Of a stretch of 50,472 nt of DNA, positions 28,361 to 50,085 are shown piece after piece; the first letter of the stretch is position 1, and each line of letters starts with the position of its first letter. Source of the DNA: Ruminiclostridium sp. (lineage in GTDB: Bacteria > Bacillota > Clostridia > Oscillospirales > Ruminococcaceae). The translations under genes and the position numbers were made by a program. The notes under the pieces were generated by a model. That model did no database searches and was not told the origin of the DNA. It saw only the letters and a list, made by a program, of their open reading frames with translations. Location: positions 1 to 50,472 of the forward strand of contig JAGAWN010000207.1 in assembly GCA_017941355.1 (NCBI GenBank). The letters run 5' to 3'.

Positions 28361-28945
28361 ATGACAAAAAGAGAACTCGTTGTATGGGAGCAGATGAAAG
28401 AACTGTTCATAAAAGAACTCGGCGCGGAAAAAGGTGAGGAGTATCTTGCAGCCGCAAAACAAAAGCACGGCGACTGGCTGTCAAAAACAAAAGAAACTTC
28501 TCCGTCAAGGTTAAAAACGATGCGGGAAACTATAATCCCGAGAATAGCGGCTTATGCCGTGCTGAAGGAGAACGGTCGTGACGCGGACAGAATACTTGAC
28601 GATTATGTCAGGAACGTGGCGGGTCCGCTGATGCACGATACATACGCAAAAGCGGAAAAGCTGCCGGGCTTCTGGACAATTTTCAAAACGGGTTTTATAA
28701 GAATAACGAAAAAAAGTGACCGGTGGGAGTGCGAAAGCAGGAAAGAGAAAGACCGCTTTTTCCTCGATATCCGCAAATGTCTGTGGTACGATACCTGTGT
28801 GGAATGCGGGTATCCGGAGGTGTGCAGGTTTTTCTGCGACTGCGACAATTACACATACGGCGGTCTGGACAAGATAGGCTTCAACCGCACGCAGACCCTC
28901 GGCACAGGCGGAGAGAAGTGCGATTTTATGATGTACAGGAAGTGA
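28361..28945 (+). CDS. ATC-hydrolase-family protein (PF14196 type)
   Basis: 194 residues resembling the L-2-amino-thiazoline-4-carboxylate hydrolase family: an N-terminal helical part, then FFLDIRKCLWYDTCVECGYPEVCRFFCDCDNYTYGGL, a Cys-rich core that is typical, and a GTGGEKCDFMMYR end. Most members in gut Clostridia have no tested activity, so cysteine-precursor hydrolysis should not be assumed. The ATG at 28361 follows GGAGGC. It is the first and apparently only gene after the operator promoter at 28282-28332, and it converges with the small gene at 28961. Confidence 0.8.
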   Translation: MTKRELVVWEQMKELFIKELGAEKGEEYLAAAKQKHGDWLSKTKETSPSRLKTMRETIIPRIAAYAVLKENGRDADRILDDYVRNVAGPLMHDTYAKAEKLPGFWTIFKTGFIRITKKSDRWECESRKEKDRFFLDIRKCLWYDTCVECGYPEVCRFFCDCDNYTYGGLDKIGFNRTQTLGTGGEKCDFMMYRK

Positions 28946-30346: not shown

Positions 30347-30979
30347 TTATTGCGGAGCCTCCGTCTTGTCACCGACCGACCAGTAATCACATATTTTTCC
30401 GCCGGATGCTATCGTATGCTCTCTGTATAATCTGCCGTGCTGATAGGCAAACATGATCTTATCGGTCTCACAAAGCGGTCTCATGATCTCACCGAGTCCC
30501 TTGCCTGTCAGGTAGGAGCATATAGGGCAGACCGAGAAATAATAGAAACTTCCGTCACGATGTCTGCCCTCATCAAAATGAACTTTCCAGGTGGTCGGAT
30601 ATTTCTTTCCGTTCCCCGCATTGTACCACTTCTCGTATTTTTTCATATCCTTATACCACTTATCCGGAGTCTTGTTGAGATCGGTCATTCCGAAGAACGG
30701 TTTTACCTTTTTCAGCACATCTGCCATTACAAGCGCAATGTCGTCCGGCGACAGTTTTTTATCCGTTCCGAGCCACGCACCGACAAAAACGTATGCAAAA
30801 TAAGCGTTTGATGCCATTGGATTACCGCTGCCGAGGTCTGGCGCTTCCTCAACAAGAGCGCGGTATTCTTTCTTGCCGTTTTTAATTGCTCTGACCGCCA
30901 TTTCCTTTCCGTAGCGCATTTTGATGCTGCTCTTTATCATCGGTGCGAACAGCGTCCAGTAAAACCCGTTTTGTTTCAT
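30347..30979 (-). CDS. ATC-hydrolase-family protein (PF14196 type), second copy
   Basis: 210 residues of the same broad family as the gene at 28361 but only distantly alike. It has the longer N-terminal part (YWTLFAPMIKSSIKMRYG), SVCPICSYLTGKGLGEIMRPLCETD, and HTIASGGKICDYW at the end. It is tightly linked to the flavodoxin frame upstream: its ATG at 30979 overlaps that stop codon. Because the flavodoxin frame has lost its start, expression of this gene is doubtful unless a promoter lies inside that frame. Confidence 0.8.
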   Translation of the reverse strand: MKQNGFYWTLFAPMIKSSIKMRYGKEMAVRAIKNGKKEYRALVEEAPDLGSGNPMASNAYFAYVFVGAWLGTDKKLSPDDIALVMADVLKKVKPFFGMTDLNKTPDKWYKDMKKYEKWYNAGNGKKYPTTWKVHFDEGRHRDGSFYYFSVCPICSYLTGKGLGEIMRPLCETDKIMFAYQHGRLYREHTIASGGKICDYWSVGDKTEAPQ

Positions 30980-31707: not shown

Positions 31708-31893
31708 TCATTCTTCCTTAGTCAGCTTGTAAAGCACAGTCCCGAAACACAGCAGCAATATCCCGCAAACAATGAGAACAGTCCTTACCGTCTGCGCCGC
31801 CATGTCGTCATTAAAATACAAACCACCGAGAAGCAGGAACACGCTTATCATCATCATAAGCAGTCCTGCTATTTTCTTTGCCGCACTACGCAT
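31708..31893 (-). CDS. Small two-helix membrane protein at the end of the ABC operon
   Basis: 61 residues with two hydrophobic segments (about 9-26 and 35-54) and a basic start (RSAAKK). The ATG at 31893 overlaps the end of the ABC transporter gene, so it is translated with it. No family recognised. Position suggests an accessory subunit of the transporter encoded just upstream. Confidence 0.6.
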   Translation of the reverse strand: MRSAAKKIAGLLMMMISVFLLLGGLYFNDDMAAQTVRTVLIVCGILLLCFGTVLYKLTKEE

Positions 31894-33604
31894 TTGCCGC
31901 CTCCATTCTGCTGTACAGACCTCCGAGTGCAAGAAGCTCAGAGCGCGTACCGCGTTCTTCGATCTTACCGTTATCAAGCACAAGTATCTGATCCGCCCCG
32001 CTCACAGTATAAAGCCTGTGCGCGATGACAACAGTCGTCTTATCCCTGCACAGTTCCGCCATTGCCGCCTGTATGCAGCGTTCATTGTCGGCGTCGATAC
32101 TTGCGGTCGCTTCGTCAAGAATTATGATCGGCGAGTTTTTGAGTATGCATCTTGCAATCGAAATACGCTGCGCTTCGCCGCCGGAGAGAGACGCTCCGCC
32201 CTCTCCTATGACAGTCTCGAAACCGTATGGCAGAGCGCTTATGAAATCAAAGCACTGTGCTTTCCGGGCTGCTTCGTACACTTCATCGCGGGTCGCTTCG
32301 GGGCGTCCCATTGCTATGTTGTTGTATATCGTGTCCTGAAAGAGATATACTTTCTGGAAAACCATGCTTACATTGTCCATAAGCTCGGACAGCGGAACTT
32401 TCCGTATATCCGTTCCCCGCACAAGTATCTCGCCGCCGGTAATATCCCAGAAACGTGCAAGCAGGTTTGCTATCGTGGTCTTGCCGCTCCCGGACTGACC
32501 TACCAGCGCGGTCATCTGACCTTTCTTCGCGGAGAATGATATATCATGCAGCACTTCTTCGCTTCCGTATGCAAACGTAACATTCCTGAACTCGATCTCG
32601 TTATTATACCCGTCTGTGCCGAAATGCTCCGTACCGCTGTCGGCAAGTTCACTTTCCGCAAACACTTCATCTATCCGGTCAAGACAGCTTTTCATTATAG
32701 TAAGTCTTGTGGTCTGCTGATAAAGATGCTTTATAGCGGAAAAAACGCTGAACAGGAACAATATCGTACCCACGAAATATGTAGCGGAAAGCTGTCCGTT
32801 CTGCATGAGCCATACCGCAGAAGCGAGCAGAGCCGTGATGCCGATGCCGTATAAAACCAGATGCGCTGTTTCAAAAGGAATTATATGCTCCTCAAAGCTG
32901 AGATTGGTGGTTTTCATTTTCCTGAATGCCGAACGCATTTCCGCCGCGCTCTCTCCCGTAAGTCCGTAGCTTTTTATTACAGGAAGTCCCTCGGAATACT
33001 CAAGCACGGCACTTGTGAGTTCTTCAACCGCCGCTTGTCGGTCAGCAGCTTCACCGAGAGAGCGCTTTATGCACGGCTGCGCGGTAATGATAACAGCAGC
33101 TTCGACTGTAAGTGTCACAGCGCCGAGCAGCGGGTGCAGTACGAACATGAACGCGGTGGTTATCACAGCGCTGAATATATCGCTCACCACATCTGCAACT
33201 ATCGTCATAGCCTGCTCCTCGATGAATACCATATCCTGCGACAGCACGGAGCTTATGCGCCCGATATTGCCCTCTGAGAAATACCCCATAGGCAGCTTCC
33301 GGAGATGCTCGCCGAGCGCCTTTCGCTTGTCCGCGAACACACGATAACCCGTGCCGGACTGGAGACGGTCGGAAATATTCTTGCAGACCGCCTGCAATAC
33401 AAATGATACCAGCATAGCCGCAGCTGCCGTCACACAACTCATCACTGTCAGCTGTCCGCGCAGATAAAGGTCGATCATGTATATAGCAGCTACTGTCGGA
33501 ACGTTCATTAGCAGAGAATGAAAGAATGTGGATATGTATGCAAGCCTTATTCTTCCGGCATATTTCCCGATGAATTTAAGTATTCTGTGTACCGTCCGTA
33601 TCAA
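31886..33604 (-). CDS. ABC half-transporter, exporter fold (second subunit)
   Basis: 572 residues from a TTG at 33604, which overlaps the stop of the upstream gene and has AAAGGAGGTG before it. Six membrane helices (about 20-300) precede an ATPase domain with Walker A VGQSGSGKTT, signature LSGGEAQR and Walker B IIILDEATAS, all intact. It pairs naturally with the exporter-type half fused into the preceding protein, giving a heterodimer. Transporters of this fold that sit with uptake genes include iron-siderophore importers such as YbtPQ and IrtAB, so direction cannot be judged from the fold alone. Confidence 0.88.
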   Translation of the reverse strand: MIRTVHRILKFIGKYAGRIRLAYISTFFHSLLMNVPTVAAIYMIDLYLRGQLTVMSCVTAAAAMLVSFVLQAVCKNISDRLQSGTGYRVFADKRKALGEHLRKLPMGYFSEGNIGRISSVLSQDMVFIEEQAMTIVADVVSDIFSAVITTAFMFVLHPLLGAVTLTVEAAVIITAQPCIKRSLGEAADRQAAVEELTSAVLEYSEGLPVIKSYGLTGESAAEMRSAFRKMKTTNLSFEEHIIPFETAHLVLYGIGITALLASAVWLMQNGQLSATYFVGTILFLFSVFSAIKHLYQQTTRLTIMKSCLDRIDEVFAESELADSGTEHFGTDGYNNEIEFRNVTFAYGSEEVLHDISFSAKKGQMTALVGQSGSGKTTIANLLARFWDITGGEILVRGTDIRKVPLSELMDNVSMVFQKVYLFQDTIYNNIAMGRPEATRDEVYEAARKAQCFDFISALPYGFETVIGEGGASLSGGEAQRISIARCILKNSPIIILDEATASIDADNERCIQAAMAELCRDKTTVVIAHRLYTVSGADQILVLDNGKIEERGTRSELLALGGLYSRMEAANA

Positions 33605-36600
33605 ACAGCCTGCACCTCCTTTTTCAGCGTCCATTCGTGTGTTTCCTCCGACATTGCCCATAATCTGCGGTATTCTCCGCTTGATGTGGCAAGTTCATCG
33701 TGCGTACCCTCCGCAGATATTTCGCCCCCGTCAAGAACTATTATCTTGTCGGCATTCTTTACAGAGCGAAGCTTGTGTGCTATCACTATCACGGTTTTTC
33801 CGCGCGTTATCTCGCCCATTGCTCTTCGCATCTTTGCCTCGTTTTCCGCATCGACAGATGCCGTAGCTTCGTCAAGAATTATGATCGGTGCGTCTTTTAA
33901 GATAGCACGGGCAAACGCTATTCTCTGCTTCTGACCGCCCGACAGCATATTTCCCGCAGCACCGGCGGGAGTATCATATCCATGCGGGAGCGAGCGGATA
34001 AATTCGTCACATTCCGCTTTCTTCGCCGCTTCGATGACTTCCTCGTCGGAAGCGCCTTTTCTTCCCGCGCGGATATTCTCCATTATCGTTTTGTTGAACA
34101 GGAAAACTTCCTGCGAAACATACGCCACACGGCTGTTGAGCGCGTCCTGTGACATATCGCGGATATCCTGCCCGCCAATGCTTATACTGCCGGACCGGAT
34201 ATCGTAATAATGTACAAGCAGCTTTGCGAGAGTGCTTTTTCCGCTGCCGCTGTGTCCCACAAGAGCGGTGACTTTCCCCTCGTCCGCACTGAACGTGATA
34301 CCCTTTATGACCTCATTATCCTTGTACGCGAAACGGACGTTCTCAAATGTCACAGTGTTGTCTTTTCCGGTAAATCCCGAATTTCCCGCTTTCAGCGGCA
34401 GGTCATCGAGCGCCTTTTCAAGCGACTGTATCTTGAAGCTCACCTGCGGTATGGAGCCGATAAAACTCATGCAGTGCAGAAGCAGCGGTCCTATGCCGAA
34501 CGAAAGTATGAGAGCAAGTATATAGTTTGAAATATCGAGCTGACCGAGAAGTATAAGTAGCGCTCCGAATGGCAGTGAATACATGACTACCGACGAGAAC
34601 ACGCTCCCGTACAGTGCCATCCACGGCCAGCTCACCTTATACCAGTCAAGCGCGTAATCGCGGTAATCGGTAACTGCCTTTTCGTACTTTTCGCTTGCGG
34701 CTCCGTCACGGTTGAATACGCGGACTACCTCCATGCCGTTCACATATTCGACTATCGCGTTGTTCATTCGTTTTGCGGAAGCAAAATAGCTTCCCATTCT
34801 GTCCATTCCCACCGAGTACATCTGTCTCGAAACGCCGAGCCCGATGAAGACCATAAGTATCGTGAGAAGTGCGAGCTGCCAGTCCGCGGCTATAAGTATT
34901 ATCAGCGCTGCCGCCGGAACGAAAAGATTTGCCGCACCCTCCGGTATCATGTGCGCGAGAAGCATTTCAATGGACTCAATGTCGTCCGAAAAAAGCTTCT
35001 TTATCTCACCCTTTGAATGTCTTGCGACAGTTCCGAGGGGCTGACTTTCAAGTTTTTCCTGCAATATGCACCGTATGTTTTCAAGCGTTCCGAAAGCCGC
35101 GTGGTGCGACACCCGAAGTCCCTGCATATAGAAAACAGCGTAAACGATCTCCGCTATCAGCACTCCCGCTATCACCCATACAGAGCCTTCGAGAGTGACC
35201 GGTTCTCCGTGAACGACTTTGTTGACGATCCCCGAAACGAGCGCATAGGGAACAACGCTTGCCGCCGCTCCAATCATCATCAGCGCAGCAGCTATATACA
35301 CCTTCGCCCTGTCTTTTCCCGCGTATTCCAGTATCTTTCCTATCTGGCTCTTATGGTCACGCTTTTTGCTTGTCGTATCGTCGCTCTCCGACATAAAGTA
35401 GTTCTTTATGCGCTGTGAGCCTTCTTTGTCAAGCGGGTAGAATGCCGATACCCTGCCCCGCTCCATGTGCAGGACATGGGTACAGCACCTCAGTATCAGC
35501 TCCGGATCGTGGGTAATTATGACCGACAGCTTCACCTTGTCCTTCATACCGCGGAGAAGCTCTCCGAACCGCTCCATTCCGCGTCTGTCAAGGCCGCTGG
35601 TGGGTTCGTCGCAGAAGATGATCTCCTTACCCGCACATAGCGCCGCCGCAATAGCGGTACGCTGTTTCTGTCCGCCAGAAAGCGATGCGGGGTGACGGTC
35701 TCTGTACTCCGCAAGTCCGAGCCGTTCAAGCGTTCTGTCCGCTTCCTCTGCGGTGCAGTCCGAGTTCATCATCACTTCCTCGATAACGCTGTCCGAGAAA
35801 AGCTGACGGTTCACGTCCTGCATCACCATGAAGCATTTCTGACGTCGCTGCTTGTCATTAAGGAAAGTGCCGCCGAAGGAAACGCTCCCGTCCGAGGGGA
35901 TAAGTCCGCACAGCGCCTCGGCAAGTGTACTTTTGCCGCAGCCGTTGTCTCCCACTACCGCAACTATGCTGTTTTCAGGAAACATTATCCTGTCCGCGTC
36001 GAGTATGCGGGAATTTCCGCGGCTGCAGCTGAGGTCTATAACGTCGAGAGCGGGAGTGCCGTTCTGAGCTACAGCGTTCTCTGCGCCGACCGCTATATTT
36101 CCTATGGAAGTGCAGCGCAGACCGAGTTCCGACAGTTCGTTCTCCGTAAGCGTTCTCATCTGATCCGCAGTGTATTCGTGAACTATCCTGCCGTCATTCA
36201 TATAAATAAACCTGTCGGCAATGTCCATGAGATAGTGTATGCGATGCTCGGAGACTACTATTGTTTTCCCGTCCTGCTTCATTTTCACCATTATGTCGTG
36301 GAGACGGTTTATCGCTTTCTTGTCGAGATTTGACGACGGCTCGTCCATAACGAACACTTTCGGTTCTGTGGCATATACCGAACCGCAGGCTATCTGCTGT
36401 TTTTCACCGCCGGACAGCTCAAATATATTCCTGTTCATAAGCGGGTCAAGCTTCATATCCCTGCGGGTCTTGTCCAGCCGCCTGCCGATATCCTCACGGG
36501 ACATTCCGAGATTCTCACACCCGAATGTCAGCTCTCCGGTGGTATCAATGTTGAAGAACTGGGACTTCGGGTTCTGGAACACGCTCCCGACAAGTGCAGC

Positions 36601-36846
36601 GGTCTCCGAAAGTTCGCTTGCTGACACATTATGCCCGTCAATAAAGACTTCGCCGATAAGTTCACCCTCATAGAACTGCGGGATAAGTCCGTTTATAAGT
36701 CTTGTGACCGTTGTTTTGCCGCAGCCGCTTTCTCCGCATAATACTACACATTCCCCATCGGCTATCGTAAGATCGAGCGCATCAACACCGTCGCCTGTCC
36801 CGTTTTCTCCGCCGTAATGAAAATCCACATTTCTCAGTTCTATCAC
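33601..36846 (-). CDS. Three-ATPase fusion: double ECF ATPase joined to an ABC half-transporter
   Basis: 1081 residues. Residues 1-480 are a double ATPase of ECF importers: NBD1 with GESGCGKTT (38-46), LSGGEKQQ and VMDEPSSNLD; NBD2 with GDNGCGKST near 300, LSGGQKQR and CDEPTSGLD. Residues 510-800 are six membrane helices of exporter fold, and the end is NBD3 with GHSGSGKST near 869, LSGGQKQR and LDEATASVD. The join lies around residue 485, where an internal ATG (35394) has no ribosome site, so the frame is a true fusion here. In the second ECF operon of this window the double ATPase is a separate protein of 465 residues. The ATG overlaps the EcfT stop by four bases. The fusion ties the ECF importer and the exporter-fold transporter into one machine or at least forces equal synthesis. 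Confidence 0.9.
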   Translation of the reverse strand: MIELRNVDFHYGGENGTGDGVDALDLTIADGECVVLCGESGCGKTTVTRLINGLIPQFYEGELIGEVFIDGHNVSASELSETAALVGSVFQNPKSQFFNIDTTGELTFGCENLGMSREDIGRRLDKTRRDMKLDPLMNRNIFELSGGEKQQIACGSVYATEPKVFVMDEPSSNLDKKAINRLHDIMVKMKQDGKTIVVSEHRIHYLMDIADRFIYMNDGRIVHEYTADQMRTLTENELSELGLRCTSIGNIAVGAENAVAQNGTPALDVIDLSCSRGNSRILDADRIMFPENSIVAVVGDNGCGKSTLAEALCGLIPSDGSVSFGGTFLNDKQRRQKCFMVMQDVNRQLFSDSVIEEVMMNSDCTAEEADRTLERLGLAEYRDRHPASLSGGQKQRTAIAAALCAGKEIIFCDEPTSGLDRRGMERFGELLRGMKDKVKLSVIITHDPELILRCCTHVLHMERGRVSAFYPLDKEGSQRIKNYFMSESDDTTSKKRDHKSQIGKILEYAGKDRAKVYIAAALMMIGAAASVVPYALVSGIVNKVVHGEPVTLEGSVWVIAGVLIAEIVYAVFYMQGLRVSHHAAFGTLENIRCILQEKLESQPLGTVARHSKGEIKKLFSDDIESIEMLLAHMIPEGAANLFVPAAALIILIAADWQLALLTILMVFIGLGVSRQMYSVGMDRMGSYFASAKRMNNAIVEYVNGMEVVRVFNRDGAASEKYEKAVTDYRDYALDWYKVSWPWMALYGSVFSSVVMYSLPFGALLILLGQLDISNYILALILSFGIGPLLLHCMSFIGSIPQVSFKIQSLEKALDDLPLKAGNSGFTGKDNTVTFENVRFAYKDNEVIKGITFSADEGKVTALVGHSGSGKSTLAKLLVHYYDIRSGSISIGGQDIRDMSQDALNSRVAYVSQEVFLFNKTIMENIRAGRKGASDEEVIEAAKKAECDEFIRSLPHGYDTPAGAAGNMLSGGQKQRIAFARAILKDAPIIILDEATASVDAENEAKMRRAMGEITRGKTVIVIAHKLRSVKNADKIIVLDGGEISAEGTHDELATSSGEYRRLWAMSEETHEWTLKKEVQAV

Positions 36847-37595
36847 TGCGCAGTACCTCCGGTAATTATTGAAACGACGATAAAATAGACTGCCGCGCCT
36901 ATGAACAGTGCCATAACCGCATAATCATGTACGCCGAGTTTTATTTCCTCATAGGACGAACGCTTGCCCGACCTGTCCATTCCCCGTGCGAGAGCCGCCG
37001 CCGCAAGCTCCTCCATTATCGAAACAGACGAGAACAGCAGCGGTATGAGAATGTACTCTATGGTTTTCAGCGGTGAACGTATCACCGCCGCCGGTTCAAG
37101 CGAGATGCCGCGGAACGCCATAGCCTTGCGGATCCCGTTCCACTCGTCGCGTACTGTCGGTATAAATCTGAACATCACTGCTATGGGGATTATGACAGCG
37201 GTTGGCAGGTGCATAGCCTGAAACGCGGACAAGAACTGATTTATCCGTGTCGTCTGCGTAAGTATCATTATCGACAGCATCACCGGAAAGAAAAACAGGA
37301 ATATCATCAGTATGCAGGACACTATCGTTACTATCACCGGCGCGCCTGTCCCCGCGTGTTCCATGCTGAACCGCAGGAACACAGCGAATGCCAGCATAAG
37401 GAAAGCTTTTACAGCGTTCGCCTTTTTACCGCAGAGAAACAGCATAAGGCACAGCACGACACTGTAAATGACAAGTGCCGCAACATTGTACGAATTTGCG
37501 CTCACCACGAGGCTTACCGCGAAAACTACAAACTTTGTCCGCGGATCGAATTTAACGAGGGCGTTTTTGTCCTCTCCGTAAAGTTCAAAGTCCAA
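36843..37595 (-). CDS. ECF transporter T-component (EcfT/CbiQ type)
   Basis: 250 residues with about six membrane segments. The C-terminal coupling region holds AAAALARGMDRSGKR, the Ala-Arg-Gly motif by which T-components touch the ATPases. It is encoded between the S-component (start one base after that stop) and the double-ATPase fusion (4-base overlap), the standard ECF order. A second motif further up (GISLEPAAVIRSP) may be the other ATPase-contact helix. Confidence 0.88.
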   Translation of the reverse strand: MDFELYGEDKNALVKFDPRTKFVVFAVSLVVSANSYNVAALVIYSVVLCLMLFLCGKKANAVKAFLMLAFAVFLRFSMEHAGTGAPVIVTIVSCILMIFLFFFPVMLSIMILTQTTRINQFLSAFQAMHLPTAVIIPIAVMFRFIPTVRDEWNGIRKAMAFRGISLEPAAVIRSPLKTIEYILIPLLFSSVSIMEELAAAALARGMDRSGKRSSYEEIKLGVHDYAVMALFIGAAVYFIVVSIITGGTAQ

Positions 37596-38210
37596 TTATA
37601 CTACTCCTGCTTTTGTGAAATGCTTTTTGATAAGTACGTTTGCGAGCAGCGAACCGATGATACCGCCGATCACCGCAAAACCGAGAATTGCAAAGAATAT
37701 CCAGTCCGTCGCAACAGCCGCTATGCCGTCGGCGTATTCCTGCCCGTAAAATTCCAACGATCTCTGCAAAAACGCGTCGCGGTCAATTGTCAGCCTCATA
37801 TACGGGAAAGCCATATTCAGATTGAATACGACGAACGAGAGCAGATACATCTTTTTCGATTTATACTTGCCGAGCATTATGACAATCTCCGCCAGAAGAG
37901 CCGCCGCTATTGCTCCGACTATGCTGTACCACGCACCGCTGCACGCAGTCAGCGCGAACAATACGCCGAGGATAAGCGCAGCGCCGAATTTCCTCACTTT
38001 CAGAACGCACAGCATATATACCGTTCCGCATACAAGTCCTACGGTTATTGGAGCAAGTATGTAAAGTATCGGTATCATGCTTGTTCCGAGGACGACGATG
38101 AGCATGAGCACTATGTACAGCGCTCCGAACGCGCCCGCGTAGATAAGTTCCTTTGTGCGCAGCTTCTTGTCCGGCTTCGCACCCGTGTTGTTAAGTTCTT
38201 TCTTACTCAT
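37596..38210 (-). CDS. MptD-type ECF S-component (TIGR02185 family)
   Basis: 204 residues with about six membrane segments. The start KLRTKELIYAGAFGALYIVLM and the end LANVLIKKHFTKAGVV match the MptD/Trep_Strep family of putative S-components, which bind the substrate in ECF importers. Members of this broad family in streptococci and lactobacilli have been tied to haem uptake, as I recall, so a haem or metal-complex substrate is reasonable but unproven. The ATG at 38210 follows AAAAGGAG. It is the first gene after the TTAGC palindrome at 38243-38256. Confidence 0.82.
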   Translation of the reverse strand: MSKKELNNTGAKPDKKLRTKELIYAGAFGALYIVLMLIVVLGTSMIPILYILAPITVGLVCGTVYMLCVLKVRKFGAALILGVLFALTACSGAWYSIVGAIAAALLAEIVIMLGKYKSKKMYLLSFVVFNLNMAFPYMRLTIDRDAFLQRSLEFYGQEYADGIAAVATDWIFFAILGFAVIGGIIGSLLANVLIKKHFTKAGVV

Positions 38211-38241: not shown

Positions 38242-38257
38242 GTTAGCACAAGCTAAC
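38242..38257 (-). promoter_or_regulatory. Perfect GTTAGC-N4-GCTAAC operator before the MptD-ECF-ABC operon
   Basis: GTTAGC-ACAA-GCTAAC is a perfect 6+6 palindrome, 32 bases before the MptD start. GATAAT (38264-38259) next to it or TATTAT (38239-38234) beyond it could be the -10; neither has a good -35, so part of the transcription may come from the TetR gene upstream. Confidence 0.75.
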
Positions 38258-38299: not shown

Positions 38300-38935
38300 T
38301 TACTCGCTGCTGTCCGGCAGGAATTCCGGCAATCCGAGTGCCGCTTTCCAGTTTATCAGTTTTTCTATGGTATTACAGAGATCAAGCGTCTCCTCATGCG
38401 ACATTCCGTGAATGAACGGCTCATAAAAAAGCTCCCAGTACGCAGAGAGCATTATGTGCATCTTTGCTCTTGTCACTTTTTCCTTTGCAAGCCCGCGTCT
38501 GTACGCTTCCGCATAATACTCGTAATCGGTATCCGTGAGCCGGTCTGCAAAATCGTGGTGAAAATTGCGGTACTTCGTTCCCTCCGCCCGTGTGAGCAGC
38601 AGCACAAACGACTCCCGGACTCCTTCAAACATATCGAAGAACACCGCAAGTCTGTCCGCACCCGCGTACCACGGCATAAGAAGATCGCGGTCAGAAAGCT
38701 GTGTTACATCGGAAGAGGCACTATTGACTATCTGCTCAAGCACCTGCACCGCGTCATCCACCACTGCTTCAAACAGTTCTTCCTTGCCCTTGTATCTTAT
38801 ATACAATGCACCTGTCGTTACTCCGGCGTTTCTGCATATCTCCTGCACCGACGCTTCCGCAAAGCCTTTTTCAAGGAATTGCTCACGGGCGCTTTTCAGA
38901 AGTACCGGGTCGATGTTTTTATCTCTTAATGCCAT
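38300..38935 (-). CDS. TetR-family regulator
   Basis: 211 residues. The N-terminal helix-turn-helix is clear (AREQFLEKGFAEASVQEICRNAGVTTGALYIRYKGKEELFEAV); the rest is an all-helical ligand domain of the usual size. It precedes the MptD-ECF-ABC operon on the same strand by 90 bases. Its own promoter carries a different palindrome (AATAA/TTATT at 38963-38977), so it may not be the reader of the TTAGC operator. Confidence 0.88.
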   Translation of the reverse strand: MALRDKNIDPVLLKSAREQFLEKGFAEASVQEICRNAGVTTGALYIRYKGKEELFEAVVDDAVQVLEQIVNSASSDVTQLSDRDLLMPWYAGADRLAVFFDMFEGVRESFVLLLTRAEGTKYRNFHHDFADRLTDTDYEYYAEAYRRGLAKEKVTRAKMHIMLSAYWELFYEPFIHGMSHEETLDLCNTIEKLINWKAALGLPEFLPDSSE

Positions 38936-38962: not shown

Positions 38963-39003
38963 AATAATGACGTTATTATATCACATTTTTATGCCTTTGT
39001 CAA
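38963..39003 (-). promoter_or_regulatory. TetR promoter with overlapping palindrome
   Basis: On the minus strand TTGACA at 39003-38998, a 17-bp spacer and TATAAT at 38980-38975. AATAATGACGTTATT (38963-38977) overlaps the -10 and is a candidate autoregulatory site. No ribosome site of note; the ATG is at 38935. Confidence 0.65.
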
Positions 39004-39375: not shown

Positions 39376-39891
39376 TTATTTCCCTGCTTTTTTCATTCGC
39401 TCTATAACAAAATATGCACACAGACCGGTGAACAGACCCGATATGATGCCGCCGATCATAAGGAACGGCAGATAGCCGATAACGGCAAACGACCCGAAAC
39501 TCACAATTACCGCCGCTATCTGACCTATGTTGTGCAGCACGGCACCTATCACGCTGCACGCCCATATCGGAAGCTTCGGAAACAGCCGCGAGACAGGTAT
39601 CATACCCAAAAGGCACAGCAAGGCGCCGGACGCGCTGTACAGTATAGTCGAGAAGCTCGCAGCAAACATCGCGCCTATGATGACTCTGACAGCAACAACA
39701 AGTGCAGCCTCCCACGGTTTGTAACGATATACGCAGTACACCGTGATTATGTTCGCAAGTCCAAGCTTTACGCCGGGGATAGCAGTCAGCGGGGGTATCT
39801 GAAGTTCGATCACGAATATTATAAGTGCCACCGCCGTCAGCATTGCAAGTTCGGTAAGCCGCTTTACCGGCATTTTTCCTTTGTCACTCAT
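39376..39891 (-). CDS. Gx transporter family protein (PF07456 type)
   Basis: 171 residues, about five membrane segments, with LTELAMLTAVALIIFVIELQ, PGVKLGLANIITVY and the Gly-rich IGGIISGLFTG. The family was first named after heptaprenyl diphosphate synthase component I but in Clostridia it is usually found next to apbE and FMN-binding genes and is now called Gx transporter. Its ATG at 39891 overlaps the apbE stop. A supply role for the flavinylation system (for example flavin or electron-carrier export) is inference. Confidence 0.82.
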   Translation of the reverse strand: MSDKGKMPVKRLTELAMLTAVALIIFVIELQIPPLTAIPGVKLGLANIITVYCVYRYKPWEAALVVAVRVIIGAMFAASFSTILYSASGALLCLLGMIPVSRLFPKLPIWACSVIGAVLHNIGQIAAVIVSFGSFAVIGYLPFLMIGGIISGLFTGLCAYFVIERMKKAGK

Positions 39892-40894
39892 CTATTATCT
39901 CCACCGGAAAACCGGAGCTGTTCCGGAAGCTTCCGGCGATATTTTCTGTGATATATACAGTCCCGTCACCGGTCACGAGCACCATATCAAAACCGCCCTT
40001 CTCACGCCAATAACCGACAGCGCGTTCCTTCCCCATAACGAACAGTGCCGTCGAGAGCGCGTCGCACATTATTCCCCTGTCTCCGATCACGGTAACGCTC
40101 ACAAGCCCGCTGTCTGCGGGATATCCGGTACGCGGGTCGAGGATATGGATATACACATTGCCGCTGTCGTCCGTGAAATATCGCTGATAGCCTCCGGAGG
40201 TTATGACTGACTTGTCGTGTATCTGCAATACCCCGAGCAGTTCGTTCGGCGAAAACGGGTTCGCTATACCGACAGACCATTCCGACCCGTCCGGCTTTGA
40301 ACCGAGAGCCTGCACATTTCCGCCGAGATTGACGAGTGCGGAAGTTGCTCCGAGTTCCGACATCACCGCAAGCATCTCGTCACCCGCGTACCCCTTTGCG
40401 CAGGAGCCGAGATCAAGCATATACCCCTCCGGAAGCGTTATGGAGTTCCCGGATATTATGATATTTTCGTATCCCGTTTTTTCGAGCGCAGACCTTACAG
40501 CTTCGTCTGTCGGAACGTGCATATTCCCGGCAGTAAATCCCCATTCACGAAGAACCGGGTATATCGTGATGTCCAGCGCACCGTCTGTGCTTTCGCAGAC
40601 ATTCAGGGCTTCGGATACGACATACGCCGTATCATCGGAAACACTTGAAGTGCCGAGTTTGTTGAGGATCCCGATATCGCTGTTTTCATCGGTTACCGAG
40701 AAGCGTTCTTCAAGCTCTTTGAGCCTGTCGGCGGCGGCATTTACAGCTTCCTCGCTGTGCTGTCCGTATGCCTTTATGGAAATTATGGTGTCCATTGCGA
40801 AAAGCTCGCGTGATGATTCTGTTTGCGGTGCCGCACCGCAGGACGAGACTGCCGCAAGTATGAGGGCTGCAAAAAAATACTTTAACTTCTTCAT
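39884..40894 (-). CDS. apbE: FAD:protein FMN transferase, lipoprotein
   Basis: 336 residues. The signal peptide ends at the lipobox VSSC. Family marks are AMDTIISIKAYG, DLGSCAKGYAGDEM, LVNLGGNVQALG, GGYQRYF, HILDPRTGYPA and CDALSTALFVMG with the Mg-binding Thr. ApbE attaches FMN through a phosphate to a Ser/Thr of extracytoplasmic proteins. The target is probably the FMN-binding protein at 42657, which has the acceptor motif. The ATG at 40894 has no ribosome site, and the promoter puts the mRNA start at or just before it, so the message may be leaderless. Gx follows with overlap. Confidence 0.93.
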   Translation of the reverse strand: MKKLKYFFAALILAAVSSCGAAPQTESSRELFAMDTIISIKAYGQHSEEAVNAAADRLKELEERFSVTDENSDIGILNKLGTSSVSDDTAYVVSEALNVCESTDGALDITIYPVLREWGFTAGNMHVPTDEAVRSALEKTGYENIIISGNSITLPEGYMLDLGSCAKGYAGDEMLAVMSELGATSALVNLGGNVQALGSKPDGSEWSVGIANPFSPNELLGVLQIHDKSVITSGGYQRYFTDDSGNVYIHILDPRTGYPADSGLVSVTVIGDRGIMCDALSTALFVMGKERAVGYWREKGGFDMVLVTGDGTVYITENIAGSFRNSSGFPVEIIDE

Positions 40895-40901
40895 AGACAC
40901 T

Positions 40902-40930
40902 ATTTTATCATTGCCGGCGGATATTGTCAA
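40902..40930 (-). promoter_or_regulatory. apbE promoter with almost no leader
   Basis: On the minus strand TTGACA at 40930-40925, a 17-bp spacer and TAAAAT at 40907-40902. The ATG follows the -10 after seven bases, so translation would begin at the very 5' end. It is divergent from the operator promoter at 41036-41114 and has no palindrome of its own. Confidence 0.65.
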
Positions 40931-41035
40931 GCAAAAGACGGGCTTTCACATCAGTCGGATATTACAATTCTTATGTGATAATAACGCCGGTAAAAAGTAC
41001 AAAATGATGAAAATATGATAATTTTTGTTTTTCTC

Positions 41036-41114
41036 TTGACAATTTTATAACATAGTGCTATAATAGACTAAGTTAGCAGCTGATAACCTTATCTATCGGT
41101 TAGCTGCGTCTAAC
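41036..41114 (+). promoter_or_regulatory. Promoter with two TTAGC palindromes for the surface protein
   Basis: TTGACA at 41036-41041, a 17-bp spacer and TATAAT at 41059-41064. Two operators follow: GTTAGC-AGCT-GATAAC (41072-41087) and GTTAGC-TGCG-TCTAAC (41099-41114), 27 bp apart centre to centre. This is the only doubled site in the window and may give tighter control. Confidence 0.8.
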
Positions 41115-41147
41115 CTGTTTACTTACAAAAGAAGGAGAATTCAGAAA

Positions 41148-42584
41148 ATGAAAACATCAAAAAGAATAATCGGTGTCGGCTTTTCCGTATGCACAGCACT
41201 CTCTTGTATGAGCATCACCGCGGGAGCAGACGATGAGTATGTTTACGGAACTATGGATATCCCGTATGACCTGTTCTACGCGGGAGAACTTGACGGTGCC
41301 GCAAATAACTACACAGTTGACGCGGTATCCTCAGCGACAGATGCCAAGTGGTCAAAGAACGGCGAAGGAGAGCTTTTCGAGGGAACGTATCACTCGGAAG
41401 CAAATGCTGACGGTTCGGGTAAAATACTTGGTGTAACTTACCCTGTTGCAATAACACAGGCGGATCTCGACGCTCTCGGAGCAGACAGCTTCAATTTCAC
41501 AAAGCTGGATTCCGCACCTGCCGCTTACAAAACCGTTACGGTCAACGGAACGTCAGCTTCTTTTTCAGCAGTGAACGACGGCTCCCCGGAAACTAAAACA
41601 GGCAGCGCAAGCATAGACGCGAATTCTGTATGGGGAGATTATCAGCTGTCGATCGAGGGATTTCCGGAGGAATTCGGCGCAGTTTACGGAGCATTTATCA
41701 CTACCTCGGACAACTATGTTTATGTTATGCGCCACGAGCAGAACATCTGGAGACAGGGCGCTATCGCGTAGTCGGTAGGCTTCAAAACGGAGGAACCTCA
41801 CGGCAATAAGCTGGATTACGATATTTATGCCGATTCGCAGGGCAAGACCATAGACAAGATCACATACATCACCAAAGACGGCTATGTGACATACGATGTT
41901 GACATCTATATCCCGAAGAAGTTTGAGTACACAGCAGAGATCGCAAATGCGGCAGTCACCGCCGACAGCACTAATATTACGCTCGCAGGCTTCCCGGAGG
42001 ATTACGATGTGCAGTATGATATCGCAGGACTCGACTTCACCGTTGACGGCAGCACACTCAACTTCAAAAACGCTGCCGCAGGCGGATACAACGGAACTAT
42101 CTCCGATAAGAGCGGGGTTTATCAGGATATCCCCGTAAGTTTCGAGCTTACTACCGATGCCATGCCCGTGCAGTACGATGCGACCGCAAAGGCTCTGACT
42201 GCTGCTGACGGCGCTTCTGCTGACGAGTTTGCAGGTTTTATAAAGAATATCTCCACCGTGACTGTGGACGGCACCGACTATGCCGCTGCAGGAAAGCACG
42301 GATTGAAGATCGTAGGCGATGACGGCTCGATAGATCTTTCGGCTGAGGGCAGAGGCGGCAAGGCTTTCTCCGATGACAAGACCGAGTTCGAGGTATCTGT
42401 CAAAGCTGCCGGCTATACGCAGGAGCTGAAATTCACGCTTTCCACGGCAAGCGCGAACGCGGGCGGTGATGTTTCCGGCGCAGCAGCAGGCGGCAATTCC
42501 AATCCTAAGACAGGTGTCACAACAGCTTTTGCTGCATTTGTGATCTCCGGTGCGGCTGTGATAGCCTCCGGAAAAAGAAAGTGA
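41148..42584 (+). pseudogene. NPKTG surface protein, Tp47-like, with an in-frame amber codon
   Basis: The frame runs 479 codons from the ATG at 41148 (GAAGGAGAA before it) with one TAG at 41769-41771; coding resumes in the same frame with SVGFKTEEPHGNKL. The codon is one base from TGG, and Trp fits the family context. Both halves read as one secreted protein: signal peptide to about residue 27, YGTMDIPYDLFYAGELDG (resembling the Treponema Tp47 domain set), a repeated sheet-rich part, and a C-terminal sorting signal NPKTG, hydrophobic stretch and KRK tail. NPKTG is a sortase substrate often used for haem or iron surface proteins. Without readthrough the product would lack its wall anchor. Confidence 0.75.
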
Positions 42585-42602
42585 CCGAACATAATATTTT
42601 GA

Positions 42603-42640
42603 AACGCCTGTCCGTACTCAAAGCCGGGCAGGCGTTTTTT
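42603..42640 (+). terminator. Intrinsic terminator between the surface protein and ferric-reductase genes
   Basis: AACGCCTG at 42603-42610 pairs with CAGGCGTT at 42629-42636, followed by TTTT. It separates two genes that probably share the operator promoter, so the downstream gene would be expressed at a lower level by readthrough; I see no other promoter in the gap. Confidence 0.8.
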
Positions 42641-42656
42641 CCAAAAGAGGTAAACC

Positions 42657-44186: not shown

Positions 44187-45584
44187 TTATTTATCCCTCT
44201 GCAAATTCATTACCTCGTCTGCCGCAAGCGCGATAAATTCCGTATCGTGAGTAACGATCAATATGCACAGTCCCGAGTCCGCCGCTTCTCTGAGCAGCAC
44301 CGCAAGATCTCTCATGTGTTTCCCGTCAAGTCCGCTCGTAGGCTCGTCAAGCACCAGCAACGGACGCTCTCTCATTATTGCAGCCGCGATCAGCAGGCGC
44401 TGTTTCTGACCTCCCGACAACGACGCAGGGTGCCGCTCGGAATACTCCGACAGGTCAAACCGCGTGAGCAGCATTTCCGCTTTTTCGGCAAGTTCCGGAG
44501 CCTTTCCCATATTTATCAGCAGTTCTTCGCGAGCCGTTGCTCCGTAAAGCTGATAATCCGCGTCCTGACCGACAAAAAAGCTCGAATTGACCCTCTTGCG
44601 CGGTGAAAGCTTCCCGCCGTAATATAAGACCGAGCCGCTTCTTTCCCTGTAAATGCCGGTTATGACCTTGCATAAAGTGGATTTTCCCACGCCGTTTCTG
44701 CCGGTTATCGCAAGTATTTTTCCACGCTCTGCGGACATCGAAATTCTGTTGAGTACGCAAGTCCTGCCGCGCTTGAATGTAATATCATCAACAGTCAAAA
44801 ATGAGTCTTCTCTCTGACTGCTTCGTTCCGGTCTATTTATTTCCGGAAGCTTCAGAAAACGCAGTCCGAGTTCTGTTAGTTCTCCTTCGGTGAGTGCGCT
44901 CATCTGATCGTGCGGAAACTCCCGCTTTACTCTCCCCTTCTCCATGACGATCATACGGTCCGCAAGCTCCGAAAGATAGTACAGTCTGTGCTCCGAGACG
45001 ATTATCGTCATTCCGAGTTCTTTCAGCGTTTTCAGAAATCCGGCAAGCTGCGATGTGCTTTCCGGGTCAAGATTTGCCGACGGTTCATCGAGTATAAGTA
45101 CGTCCGGGTGAACACAGCAGGCTGCGGCTATCGCTATCTTCTGCTTTTCGCCGCTTGACATCCCGAAGATATCACGATCGAGAAGTTCCCTTATCCCGAG
45201 CATATCCGCGACTTCGTTTATGCGGCTTCGCATAAGCGCGGGAGAATAATTGCGGTTCTCCATTGCAAGAGCCGTTTCATCGGTGGTGTTCGTTGCAAAG
45301 AACTGACTCCGCGGATCTTGAAAGACATTTCCTATCTTTGTGCCTATCTCATTCAGTGTCATACCGGCGGTGTCCATACCGTCAAGAGTATAGCTGCCCG
45401 TAATCTCCCCGCCGTAGAACCGGGGACAAAGTCCGTTCAGCACACGGGTGAGCGTGGTCTTTCCGCAGCCGCTGAGACCTGTCAATATTACAAACTCTCC
45501 GCGCTTCACGGTAAAGTCTATGTCTCGGAGCGACGGCTCTTTCGCTGCTTCATACCTGAACGAAACATTTTTCAGCCGTATCAT
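44187..45584 (-). CDS. ECF double ATPase, separate protein
   Basis: 465 residues. NBD1 has GLSGCGKTT, MSSGEKQK and LILDEPSANLD; NBD2 has GRNGVGKST, LSGGQKQR and LVLDEPTSGLD. Both halves are complete, so this protein alone can energise an ECF importer. It matches residues 1-480 of the fusion at 33601 in layout. The ATG at 45584 overlaps the EcfT stop by four bases. It is the last gene of the second ECF operon. Confidence 0.92.
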   Translation of the reverse strand: MIRLKNVSFRYEAAKEPSLRDIDFTVKRGEFVILTGLSGCGKTTLTRVLNGLCPRFYGGEITGSYTLDGMDTAGMTLNEIGTKIGNVFQDPRSQFFATNTTDETALAMENRNYSPALMRSRINEVADMLGIRELLDRDIFGMSSGEKQKIAIAAACCVHPDVLILDEPSANLDPESTSQLAGFLKTLKELGMTIIVSEHRLYYLSELADRMIVMEKGRVKREFPHDQMSALTEGELTELGLRFLKLPEINRPERSSQREDSFLTVDDITFKRGRTCVLNRISMSAERGKILAITGRNGVGKSTLCKVITGIYRERSGSVLYYGGKLSPRKRVNSSFFVGQDADYQLYGATAREELLINMGKAPELAEKAEMLLTRFDLSEYSERHPASLSGGQKQRLLIAAAIMRERPLLVLDEPTSGLDGKHMRDLAVLLREAADSGLCILIVTHDTEFIALAADEVMNLQRDK

Positions 45585-46300
45585 ACGCTTCCTCCGATAC
45601 TGCGGTCAGCCGCGAAAAGCACAGCGACCGCAGTAAAGCCGAGAACAAGCACAAGCCAGTCAACCGCGCCCATTCTTACCTCATGCAGTGATGAACACTC
45701 GCCCTCAAGCTGCATTCCCCGGACACTCACCGAGGCGGCAAGTTCGTCCGCGACCTTGCTTGTGCGCATCAGCATCGGCACAAGTATGCACTCCGCTGTA
45801 AGAAACGGGTGGAGCAGCACGCCGGCTATAGATGTTCCGATACCGCGGAATTTCTGCGCTTCTCTGATACAGCGGTATTCCATTGAAACCGTCGGCATGA
45901 ACCGGAAAAATACCGCAAGCGACAGCACCGCCGTTTTCGGGAGCTTCATACGGTGCAGTGACGCTATGAGCCGCCCCGTGGGTGCAGACATTACCGGTGC
46001 GGCTCCCATTACCGCGATGATGATACGTCGGACATAGACCGTGAGCAGCGGGATACTGCCCGGTATCTGCATTTCTCTGAGCGGGAACAATACCGCCCAC
46101 AGCGCTGCATACACCAGAATGTACGCAAGCGCTTTTTTGTGCAGCCCGAACATCAGCAGCCACACCGCCGCCAGTGCGAACAAACAGCAAAGCAAAGTTT
46201 CGTCGGTTATCAGCATTGCCGCTATCGACACCGGAATGAGCAGTAATACTCTCACCCGTACATCAAGAGATGTCAGAGGGTAAATACGCCCTTGCTGCAT
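45581..46300 (-). CDS. ECF transporter T-component, second copy
   Basis: 239 residues with five or six membrane segments and the coupling motif ASVSVRGMQLEGE, a variant of the Ala-Arg-Gly motif. It stands between the MptD gene (start one base after that stop) and the double ATPase (4-base overlap), as in the first ECF operon. Confidence 0.86.
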   Translation of the reverse strand: MQQGRIYPLTSLDVRVRVLLLIPVSIAAMLITDETLLCCLFALAAVWLLMFGLHKKALAYILVYAALWAVLFPLREMQIPGSIPLLTVYVRRIIIAVMGAAPVMSAPTGRLIASLHRMKLPKTAVLSLAVFFRFMPTVSMEYRCIREAQKFRGIGTSIAGVLLHPFLTAECILVPMLMRTSKVADELAASVSVRGMQLEGECSSLHEVRMGAVDWLVLVLGFTAVAVLFAADRSIGGSV

Positions 46301-46906
46301 TTAAACAGCACCGCCGGGAACGAAATGCTTCTTCATCATTCTGCTGCCGATAAACATTCCGAGTGCGGAAGCCACACACAGACAAAGCACTACCGTAAGG
46401 ATAATTACCGGCGAGCTGTAAAGCGATACCATAGTCTCCACAGCTTCCGCGTCATAGCCGCGTGAAAGCAGCTGCGCTCTGAATGTGTCTCCGAGGAAAA
46501 GCACCGGGAAGAATGAGCCGAGCCCGTAGAGTGTCATGTGAAGCATATACGCGGCACCGGAACGGATAACGCTGTGATAGCCGTCATTCATCACAATAAG
46601 TTCGCAGATAAAGCCGCCGACAATGAAGATGATACCGGTGAGCACCTGCCCCATTATCAGCATATACAGCCCCTTTACCGCGAAGAACAGCACCTGCGTC
46701 CCCACTTTCGGAGCCTTGCTTATCATAAGCACATAGATAGGTCCGCTTATTATCGCCATAAGTGAGTAGCCGGCGTAAAGCTGCAAATGCACAGACGCGG
46801 CGAACGGGAGCGCAGTCACCATGCTGACAATAAATGTGAGCACCGAGAACAGCACCACGATTATTATTTCTTTAAGACCTACGAATTTTCTTTCTGAACC
46901 TTTCAT
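46301..46906 (-). CDS. MptD-type ECF S-component, second copy
   Basis: 201 residues and about six membrane segments. The ATG at 46906 follows GGAGG; a longer frame begins at 46954 without a ribosome site. LKEIIIVVLFSVLTFIVSMV and the end GMFIGSRMMKKHFVPGGAV are like the MptD protein at 37596, though identity looks low. It is encoded directly after the two ABC-2 permease genes, which suggests the two systems handle linked substrates. Confidence 0.82.
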   Translation of the reverse strand: MKGSERKFVGLKEIIIVVLFSVLTFIVSMVTALPFAASVHLQLYAGYSLMAIISGPIYVLMISKAPKVGTQVLFFAVKGLYMLIMGQVLTGIIFIVGGFICELIVMNDGYHSVIRSGAAYMLHMTLYGLGSFFPVLFLGDTFRAQLLSRGYDAEAVETMVSLYSSPVIILTVVLCLCVASALGMFIGSRMMKKHFVPGGAV

Positions 46907-46922
46907 TTTATGACCTCCGAAA

Positions 46923-47939
46923 TTATTTTGCCGGGCGAGCCTTTTTCGGCGCACTCATTATGACCGCGATCGTAAACAGCACCGCCGACAGACCCAGCAC
47001 CATTGCGAGATACGGCAATGCGCCCGCAATATCGCCGGTCTTCTGTATTGCCGAAATTCCGTTTTGTATCCAGCGCTGCGGAAAGCAGGCACCTATCGCC
47101 CGCATGATATCGGGCATATACTCATACGGGAACAGAACTCCCGAAAACAGCGCCATAGGCATCAGCACGAACGTACCCATGAACCACAGCGAATCCTCTT
47201 TTTTCACTATCGCGGACGCGAATACATACAGCGACACCGAAAGCACATTTGCCGAGAATACCACGAGCAGGAAACCGAGGGAATTTCTCATGCCGAAATC
47301 AAAGTTAAGTATCACGCCGGTGAGCCAGTAAATGACCGAACCCAGCATCATAAAGAACAGATACACCGCTGTCATTCCGCCTATGTATTTTCCCGTACCT
47401 GTGCCGCTGAGCAGTATGCGGTCTTTCATTTTGTTGTTCTGCTCTTTTATGAGAAGCGCCGCCAATAGGTTGCCGGAAGTCAGCGTCTTGAATATCATAA
47501 AACCGAGGGAATTTGACACGGACATTCCCCGTTCCGGTATCTCGTTGACAGAGGCAGTAATTCCGTTACCTGCCGTGCTTTGCTCTATGCAGAGCGCCAC
47601 CGCGTTTTCGATCTCCGTTTCCTTCATGCTTATGAGCCGCACCGAGCCGTCCGGGTCTATTACCGCCGCAAGCTCGATATTGCCGCCGATAAGCCCCGCT
47701 GTGACATCTTCGTACTTAACATCGACGATATTCACTCCGTCAAGCTGACGCACCGCCTCCGCTGTAACAGCTCCCCTGCCGTCCGCTGTCAGGTCTATGA
47801 CCGCCACATTATGCGCCGTTGTATAAGGCAGCAGGAACGACATGAGCAGGAAGATGAGCACCTGCTGAACGGTGATGAGATAGATGAACTCCTTGTTTCT
47901 TATGAAAATGCGCATTGTGTTTGCAATGATGTTTTTCAT
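46923..47939 (-). CDS. ABC-2 type permease, subunit 2
   Basis: 338 residues. One helix near 15-40, an extracytoplasmic domain of about 120 residues, then five helices at the C-terminus with YEYMPDIMRAIGACFPQRWIQ, a typical end of ABC-2 (PF12698) permeases. The ATG overlaps the stop of the preceding permease by four bases. With that protein and the ATPase at 49035 it forms a complete transporter of the exporter class. Confidence 0.85.
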   Translation of the reverse strand: MKNIIANTMRIFIRNKEFIYLITVQQVLIFLLMSFLLPYTTAHNVAVIDLTADGRGAVTAEAVRQLDGVNIVDVKYEDVTAGLIGGNIELAAVIDPDGSVRLISMKETEIENAVALCIEQSTAGNGITASVNEIPERGMSVSNSLGFMIFKTLTSGNLLAALLIKEQNNKMKDRILLSGTGTGKYIGGMTAVYLFFMMLGSVIYWLTGVILNFDFGMRNSLGFLLVVFSANVLSVSLYVFASAIVKKEDSLWFMGTFVLMPMALFSGVLFPYEYMPDIMRAIGACFPQRWIQNGISAIQKTGDIAGALPYLAMVLGLSAVLFTIAVIMSAPKKARPAK

Positions 47940-49033: not shown

Positions 49034-49034
49034 C

Positions 49035-49985: not shown

Positions 49986-50040
49986 CACACCAGCTCCTTT
50001 GTAATTTATGAATATTTTTGCATTTATATTCACAAACATC

Positions 50041-50085
50041 AGTTTATCACTTTCCGTTTCACTTGTCAATTAGCAGAGGCTAATT
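50041..50085 (-). promoter_or_regulatory. Promoter with TTAGC palindrome for the second ECF operon
   Basis: On the minus strand TTGACA at 50069-50064, a 17-bp spacer and TAAACT at 50046-50041. AATTAGC-AGAG-GCTAATT (50068-50085) is a perfect 7+7 palindrome and overlaps the -35, unlike the other sites, which lie after the -10. Confidence 0.8.

Follow-up and report, generated by a model that had tools for sequence, protein, structure and literature searches.

Why would a bacterium make the motor of an energy-coupling factor (ECF) importer and one half of an exporter-fold ATP-binding cassette (ABC) transporter as a single polypeptide? The question is raised by a gene on contig JAGAWN010000207.1 of Ruminiclostridium sp. 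(assembly GCA_017941355.1), whose 50,472 nucleotides are referred to here as the window. An earlier interpretation made from the letters alone (the sequence-only reading) had described a continuous 1081-codon frame at 33601..36846, encoding two ECF-type ATPases, six membrane helices and a third ATPase with all motifs intact. Length and coordinates were right, the frame lies on the minus strand, and Pfam, a motif scan and a hydropathy scan agreed on the domain order (Table 1). Pfam found three ABC_tran stretches and one ABC_membrane stretch in the protein; Walker A, LSGG and Walker B with the next Glu were intact in all three ATPases, and a simple hydropathy scan gave six membrane segments within residues 518-790. 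The best stretch for the NCBIfam model ECF_ATPase_1 was 2-252, the whole-protein score being inflated by the three ATPase domains. A CydDC identity for the half-transporter part (half A) was ruled out, since half A alone scored 290.5 for CydD (cut-off 435) and 238.1 for CydC (cut-off 329.05); the pass obtained with the whole fusion is a sum over its three ATPase domains.

The fused gene belongs to a putative minus-strand operon with the order TetR-family regulator, S component (Trep_Strep/MptD), EcfT, fusion and a second half-transporter (half B). The fused gene shares 4 bases with EcfT at one end, and at the other its frame overlaps that of half B. EcfT contains two XRX motifs, which are coupling motifs. 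With its own S component, EcfT and two motif-intact ECF ATPases, the operon is predicted to encode an ECF transporter. Likewise, the combination of type IV membrane domains fused to ATPases in two different halves gives the predicted pair the architecture of YbtPQ and IrtAB. In half B, the same hydropathy scan found only four membrane segments. Grouped in this way, the S component, EcfT, the double ATPase (AA'), half A and half B have the layout of eqbH-I-J-K-L in ICESe2 of Streptococcus equi, which are reported to encode, in that order, an S component, a T component, a double ATPase and two half-transporters (PMC8754150). Compared by layout and published text rather than by aligned Eqb sequences, the five-gene order of the equibactin locus equals that of the window, and the window protein would in effect be EqbJ joined to EqbK, which are separate genes in S. 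equi.

The fusion is not confined to this strain. A search of related genomes, the check proposed by the sequence-only reading, recovered the whole fusion in one open frame at 9 of 13 loci in named genome records (L021-L027, L030, L031), with 44-76% identity, which rules out an assembly or frameshift artefact. All nine intact copies have S and EcfT genes upstream and half B downstream, the contigs of L025, L027 and L031 ending within half B. Across the main clade, at 61-76% identity, the length of the join was constant, and the copies shared within it no start codon accompanied by a ribosome-binding-like sequence. The remaining loci were one whose frame is broken near residue 835 (L028), two fused operons without internal pieces between homologous ABC segments (L029, 7938-11122, in R. 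flavefaciens XPD3002, and L032, 7953-10504, in a metagenome-assembled genome) and one that is not a fusion (L033). The missing pieces may reflect real deletion or decay, or else assembly collapse. In L022, L029 and L032, an LCM-family methyltransferase gene lies downstream of half B (the L022 copy was checked with Pfam).

A separate AA'-half A fusion was found at L088 (10240-13380), with a join about 30 residues shorter; in a sample of 40 genomes from its family no other was reported. No further intact fusion was reported when genomes were sampled at the level of genus (60), family (297), class (391) and phylum (398); these samples overlap and each count the window's own genome. These searches used strict E-values and scored only 2-12 candidates per genome, so that the fusion counts are lower bounds; one of them missed the L088 fusion of G555, a genome it covered. 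The fusion is thus rare, though not fully counted.

Nine main fusions, including that of the window, formed one clade in the tree of half A, with a support of 100 in the Shimodaira-Hasegawa approximate likelihood ratio test (SH-aLRT). A single origin of the main clade together with L031 was not rejected by the approximately unbiased test (p-AU 0.078), and a single origin of all fusions was rejected with L088 included (p-AU 0.0014); the trees were quick ones, with long branches flagged for L088 and L031. The position of L088 outside the main clade and its different join suggest that the fusion arose more than once or else was lost on many occasions. Six sampled genomes and G300 have AA' and half A next to each other in one reading frame, with a stop codon between them. 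The ECF ATPase part of the fusion was sister to L058 (support 0.999), whose half A is only 32% like that of the window. The nearest unfused kin of half A, at about 50%, were operons of the order TetR-halfA-halfB, on a weak branch (0.66). At these loci (L035-L043, L050-L056), half A and half B were 46-51% and 47-54% identical to those of the window in 16 of 16, TetR was 39-47% identical in the 12 of 16 where it was seen, and the strict GTTAG motif described below was present at 12 of 16. Unlike the window, those with TetR seen have no ECF genes between the regulator and half A; the flanks covered 1.5 kb and left the region after half B mostly outside. We suggest that an ECF cassette came to stand after TetR and before half A, and that its downstream end then joined to half A. 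ECF genes follow half B in L067 and in G059 (L119), and the G059 order, TetR-halfA-halfB-S-T-AA', means that the cassette could instead have moved from downstream of half B. The operon may or may not have arrived recently by horizontal transfer; a gene near the R. flavefaciens XPD3002 operon has a 75% homologue in the window's genome, similar to the identity of the fusion.

The partnership also exists without the fusion. Of 216 genomes from the class to which the window belongs, 27, among them the window's own, had a match to PF09605, the Trep_Strep family. We sampled the neighborhoods of 60 S genes in 54 regions, which exclude the two hits of the window and, on a contig of G461, two partial hits. 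For 40 of the 60 Trep_Strep S genes the same-strand chain held two or more type IV half-transporters, compared with 1 of 20 shifted regions from the same genomes, and no half-transporter pair was found around S components of the PF12822 family (0 of 20 regions). Counted per region, at least two half-transporters were present in 43 of 54; 4 of the 20 S loci that lacked a pair were cut by the region edge. The exact order S-T-AA'-halfA-halfB occurred at 15 of the 60 S loci, and gene order otherwise varied, suggesting that selection keeps the genes together rather than that one block was inherited. Unfused, the five-gene set is a recurrent operon. Another fusion in this kind of operon joins EcfT and EcfAA' in one frame at L115 (6611-8917) and L121 (8467-10656).

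Half A resembles siderophore importers. Among the 60 best matches of its profile, the solved single half-transporters were led by 6p6i_A (440 bits), YbtQ (390 bits) and IrtA (375 bits), with the exporters Sav1866 (330 bits) and TM288 (319 bits) below them; 6p6i_A is the partner chain of YbtQ and hence YbtP. In a single-sequence search, too, half A was closest to YbtP, YbtQ and IrtA among solved single half-transporters. Full-length chains of the P-glycoprotein type scored above single halves, probably because two halves are summed. YbtPQ and IrtAB, reported to import through the same exporter fold, consist of two different halves, like the pair of the window. The comparison differs at the siderophore-interaction domain, of which the fusion has none among the best 25 Pfam matches. 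YbtPQ and IrtAB are not known to have an ECF motor attached. EqbK and EqbL are reported to be 28-30% identical to YbtP and YbtQ (PMC3672683).

A palindrome, GTTAG-N6-CTAAC, precedes the S gene of the window and is a sequence match to the published operator of EqbA. EqbA is reported to be a repressor of the DtxR type, which in gel shifts depended for binding on the palindrome and on Fe2+ or Zn2+, and the 36-bp operator contains GTTAGATGTATCTAAC. The strict motif stands before S in 4 of 10 relatives examined (L022, L023, L024, L032) and before TetR in L027. The 54 Trep_Strep regions (0.93 Mb) contained 47 strict sites, versus 3, 0, 0, 0 and 0 in five shuffles, and 40 control regions contained none (no site in the shifted set and none in the PF12822 set, each of 0.36 Mb). 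The 13 loci from named records had 6 strict sites. A site lay near the 5' end of a gene in 23 of the 60 Trep_Strep S chains; among 48 further loci from the genome searches, 22 had a site, and none had one when the pattern was reversed. With up to 2 mismatches, the window has 8 sites against a shuffle mean of 1.68, a count reached by none of 100 shuffles, and with up to 1 mismatch the whole genome has 24 sites against 1 for the reversed pattern.

The genes that share this site point to iron. Other sites within the window stand before an ATC_hydrolase gene (site 28317) and the gene at 41148 (sites 41072 and 41099). Outside it, we examined 17 site regions, of which 6 had a site 18-36 bases before a start and 11 had it farther off or within a gene. 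One site is 31 bases before an FTR1 permease gene, which is followed by a gene for an Fe2+ transport protein, and another, with one mismatch, is 33 bases before a DUF3793-flavodoxin, with a strict site further up. The other near-start sites precede genes for DUF2325, a PanE-like protein, a MacB-like ATPase with permease and another half-transporter pair. The site before the transport genes is a candidate operator of the EqbA type. No convincing match to the usual Fur box was found near the operon (best 12/19 before S, compared with 14/19 for the best in the whole window). A single DtxR-family match was present in the genome, a protein of 134 amino acids (aa); EqbA is said to lack the third DtxR domain, and the 134-aa protein resembles it in being, by length, too short for one. 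TetR is an unlikely reader of the palindrome, as L024 has the motif before S but no detected upstream TetR. At L173 (G000:C139), a half-transporter pair has the motif 26 bases upstream and a TetR gene before it, with a condensation-domain match on the same contig.

Some relatives carry siderophore or iron genes beside the operon. About 3 kb upstream of the unfused operon of L064, Pfam identified a nonribosomal peptide synthetase (NRPS) and an Irp3-like thiazolinyl imine reductase, and FeoB was identified near that of L067. Among 73 loci compared by BLAST clusters, with one member of each of the following clusters checked by Pfam, NRPS was present in 6, the reductase in 3, FeoB in 4, an AraC-type regulator in 22 and a MATE-containing cluster in 17. 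Similar company has been described elsewhere: an island of Clostridioides difficile clade 3, related to the equibactin locus, is reported to combine ABC, AraC, ECF and thiazolinyl imide reductase genes (PMC6814731), and in Staphylococcus lugdunensis an NRPS is described with an ECF importer (PMC12709192). In S. equi, deletion of eqbHIJ is reported to have stopped equibactin-dependent iron accumulation, with the product still secreted (PMC3672683).

We propose, with a probability of about two in three, that the operon is repressed by iron and specifies a machine that takes up an iron chelate, the likeliest being a ferric siderophore of the thiazoline type (yersiniabactin/equibactin). A role in iron acquisition is suggested by the operator of the EqbA type and the other genes bearing it, by the siderophore or FeoB genes near some relatives and by the likeness of one half to YbtP and IrtA. 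In this model the S component would bind the iron chelate, and EcfT, together with both ATPase domains at the N terminus of the fusion, would power import of the chelate. At the C-terminal end, half A would form with the 31886 protein a heterodimeric exporter-fold transporter of the YbtPQ/IrtAB kind, so that the fused chain would sit both in the ECF complex with S and T and in the heterodimer with half B, giving four ATPase domains and two pathways. With one ECF motor and one half-transporter in a single chain, the two transporters would be made in equal numbers and lie side by side. The pair may also move siderophore, either inward (by similarity) or outward in iron-free form (by the eqbKL phenotype). 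The sequences show the fusion and its recurrence, the operon, the operator-like palindrome and its recurrence, and the similarity; the substrate, the co-assembly and this movement are inferred. That the ECF module and the pair act together, as the sequence-only reading had proposed, gains support from the conserved fusion, the recurrent unfused operon, the separate second fusion and the equibactin layout. The further suggestions of that reading, a hand-over of substrate or a coupling of import with export, are conjectural, and the likely role in iron acquisition is not part of it.

Several observations weigh against this proposal. The import-dependent phenotype is reported to be still present after deletion of eqbKL (PMC3672683). 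The equibactin locus has an adjacent NRPS and the DtxR-like EqbA, whereas the window contig has TetR as the operon's own regulator and no siderophore NRPS, the 4 condensation-domain matches of the genome all lying on other contigs. Half B showed no clear preference, scoring somewhat higher with Sav1866 (387 bits) than with YbtQ (356 bits) or MsbA (345 bits). Finally, the strict motif was absent from the 140 bases before S in 6 of 10 relatives (L021, L026, L027, L029, L030, L031), and 37 of the 60 Trep_Strep S chains had no site near the 5' end of a gene.

How the two transporters would divide the work admits other answers. The ECF part may import ferric siderophore while the tethered pair expels iron-free siderophore or a native metallophore, in which case the fusion would couple uptake to recycling. 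The conditioned medium of the eqbKL deletion strain is reported to have been twofold less active, for which its authors suggest efflux (PMC3672683); in the window's paralogous Trep_Strep operon the place of the half-transporters is taken by an ATPase and two ABC-2 permeases, exporter-type by family, and the MATE-containing cluster recurs among the loci compared. Half A, however, is nearest to siderophore importers, and YbtPQ and IrtAB import with the same fold, so that we regard such a cycle as possible but not the favored outcome. A stricter version, an obligate double transporter with a fixed 1:1 ratio and four ATPases through which siderophore cycles in by the ECF part and out or onward by the tethered pair, is doubtful; if true, it would be a single-machine siderophore shuttle, of which the unfused operons would be looser forms. 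The fusion might also be a near-neutral by-product of a lost stop codon between adjacent operon genes, leaving the transporters independent. The in-frame, stop-separated neighbors show that a small change suffices, and the fusion is rare in the genome samples; a join length kept across the main clade and a separate fusion with a different join weigh against this explanation, which we likewise regard as possible but not favored.

The substrate and the direction of transport can be questioned as well. The iron compound could be heme, with an S component like that of a heme-importing ECF system and the pair as an accessory. LhaSTA of S. lugdunensis is reported as a heme-specific, iron-regulated ECF importer (PMC7299338), and iron regulation, as proposed for the window operon, fits heme equally. 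The available text on LhaSTA describes no half-transporter pair, unlike the window, and does not establish a Trep_Strep membership for LhaS. Histidine coordination was suggested by the spectrum of LhaS (PMC7299338), whereas the only invariant His in 11 aligned S components lies in a C-terminal KKHF; the absence of a conserved membrane histidine speaks weakly against heme. The NRPS and Irp3-like genes near the L064 operon point to siderophores, and heme is in our view an improbable substrate. By the title of a 2020 paper by Chatterjee, SiaFGH of group A Streptococcus is said to be an ECF-family heme transporter. Last, the pair could be a TetR-controlled multidrug or peptide efflux pump that stands beside an ECF module by chance. 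The TetR neighbor and the scores of half B, at least as high with Sav1866 as with YbtQ, are in keeping with such a pump, but the iron-type operator, the genes sharing it, the fusion to an ECF motor and the co-occurrence of the pair with Trep_Strep and not with PF12822 S components make it very improbable.

The five-gene system is already known in kind from eqbHIJKL. In the open-licence literature we found no described J-K fusion, repeated origin of it, wide partnership or operator in many relatives, nor an EqbA-type regulon beyond S. equi.

Elsewhere in the window, Pfam found the paralogous operon in which, as the sequence-only reading had noted, the double ATPase is separate. This Trep_Strep operon (44187-50069, minus strand) has an ABC ATPase and two ABC-2 permeases in place of the half-transporters, and a weak motif at 50069. 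Between the two ECF operons (39376-44051), the genes for ApbE, Hpre_diP_synt_I and an FMN_bind protein resemble a flavin-attachment set. Two plus-strand frames, 41148-41771 and 41886-42584, share a reading frame, have no Pfam match and are perhaps one gene broken by a stop. Two ATC_hydrolase family genes are present, 28361-28945 (plus strand) and 30347-30979 (minus strand); a flavodoxin gene adjoins one, and a GTTAG motif lies 28 bases before the other. A protein with FeoA and FeoB domains (248-2608, plus strand), encoded at the contig edge, is a ferrous iron importer on the same contig, and its 247 upstream bases contain no GTTAG motif. Promoter-like sites in the region numbered 10, against a shuffle mean of 8.6.

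Table 1. Features of the fused operon and its surroundings (window coordinates)
Feature	Coordinates	Strand	Basis and remarks
Fused protein, EcfA-EcfA' + ABC half-transporter A (EqbJ+EqbK-like)	33601..36846	-	1081 aa, GTG start
ECF ATPase domain 1, ~residues 1-250	36097..36846	-	Walker A 38, LSGG 144, Walker B 164; ABC_tran
ECF ATPase domain 2, ~residues 262-470	35437..36063	-	Walker A 299, LSGG 389, Walker B 409
Join, ECF ATPase to half-transporter, ~residues 471-497	35356..35436	-	Length constant in main clade; no internal start in common
Six-helix type IV ABC membrane domain, ~residues 498-825	34372..35355	-	ABC_membrane 519-780; six hydropathy segments
Third ATPase domain, ~residues 826-1081	33604..34371	-	Walker A 864, LSGG 968, Walker B 988
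Second ABC half-transporter (half B)	31886..33661	-	ABC_membrane + ABC_tran, ATPase motifs intact; real start may be internal
EcfT (CbiQ family)	36843..37595	-	PF02361, 69.1 bits (cut-off 25); XRG motifs FRG161, ARG203
ECF S component, Trep_Strep/MptD	37596..38210	-	PF09605, 1.4e-45, 156 bits (cut-off 28.7); TIGR02185, 93.9 (cut-off 76.45)
Palindrome GTTAGC-N4-GCTAAC, candidate EqbA-type operator	38242..38257		Sequence match to published operator
TetR-family regulator, upstream of S, same strand	38300..38935	-	PF00440
Promoter-like TTGACA-17-TATAAT, upstream of TetR	38975..39003	-	Promoter scan, 12/12
Paralogous unfused ECF module	44187..46954	-	Pfam; S2 46301-46954, EcfT2 45581-46300, EcfAA' 44187-45584

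ECF importers are commonly regarded as machines apart from exporter-fold ABC transporters; the conserved fusion together with the second one suggests that here they may form one unit, which the shared EqbA-type operator would tie to iron. For Trep_Strep/MptD S components this points to a class of substrate worth testing, and it offers a possible reason why eqbHIJ and eqbKL travel together. The role of the pair, import or export, would become testable with a single-chain construct.

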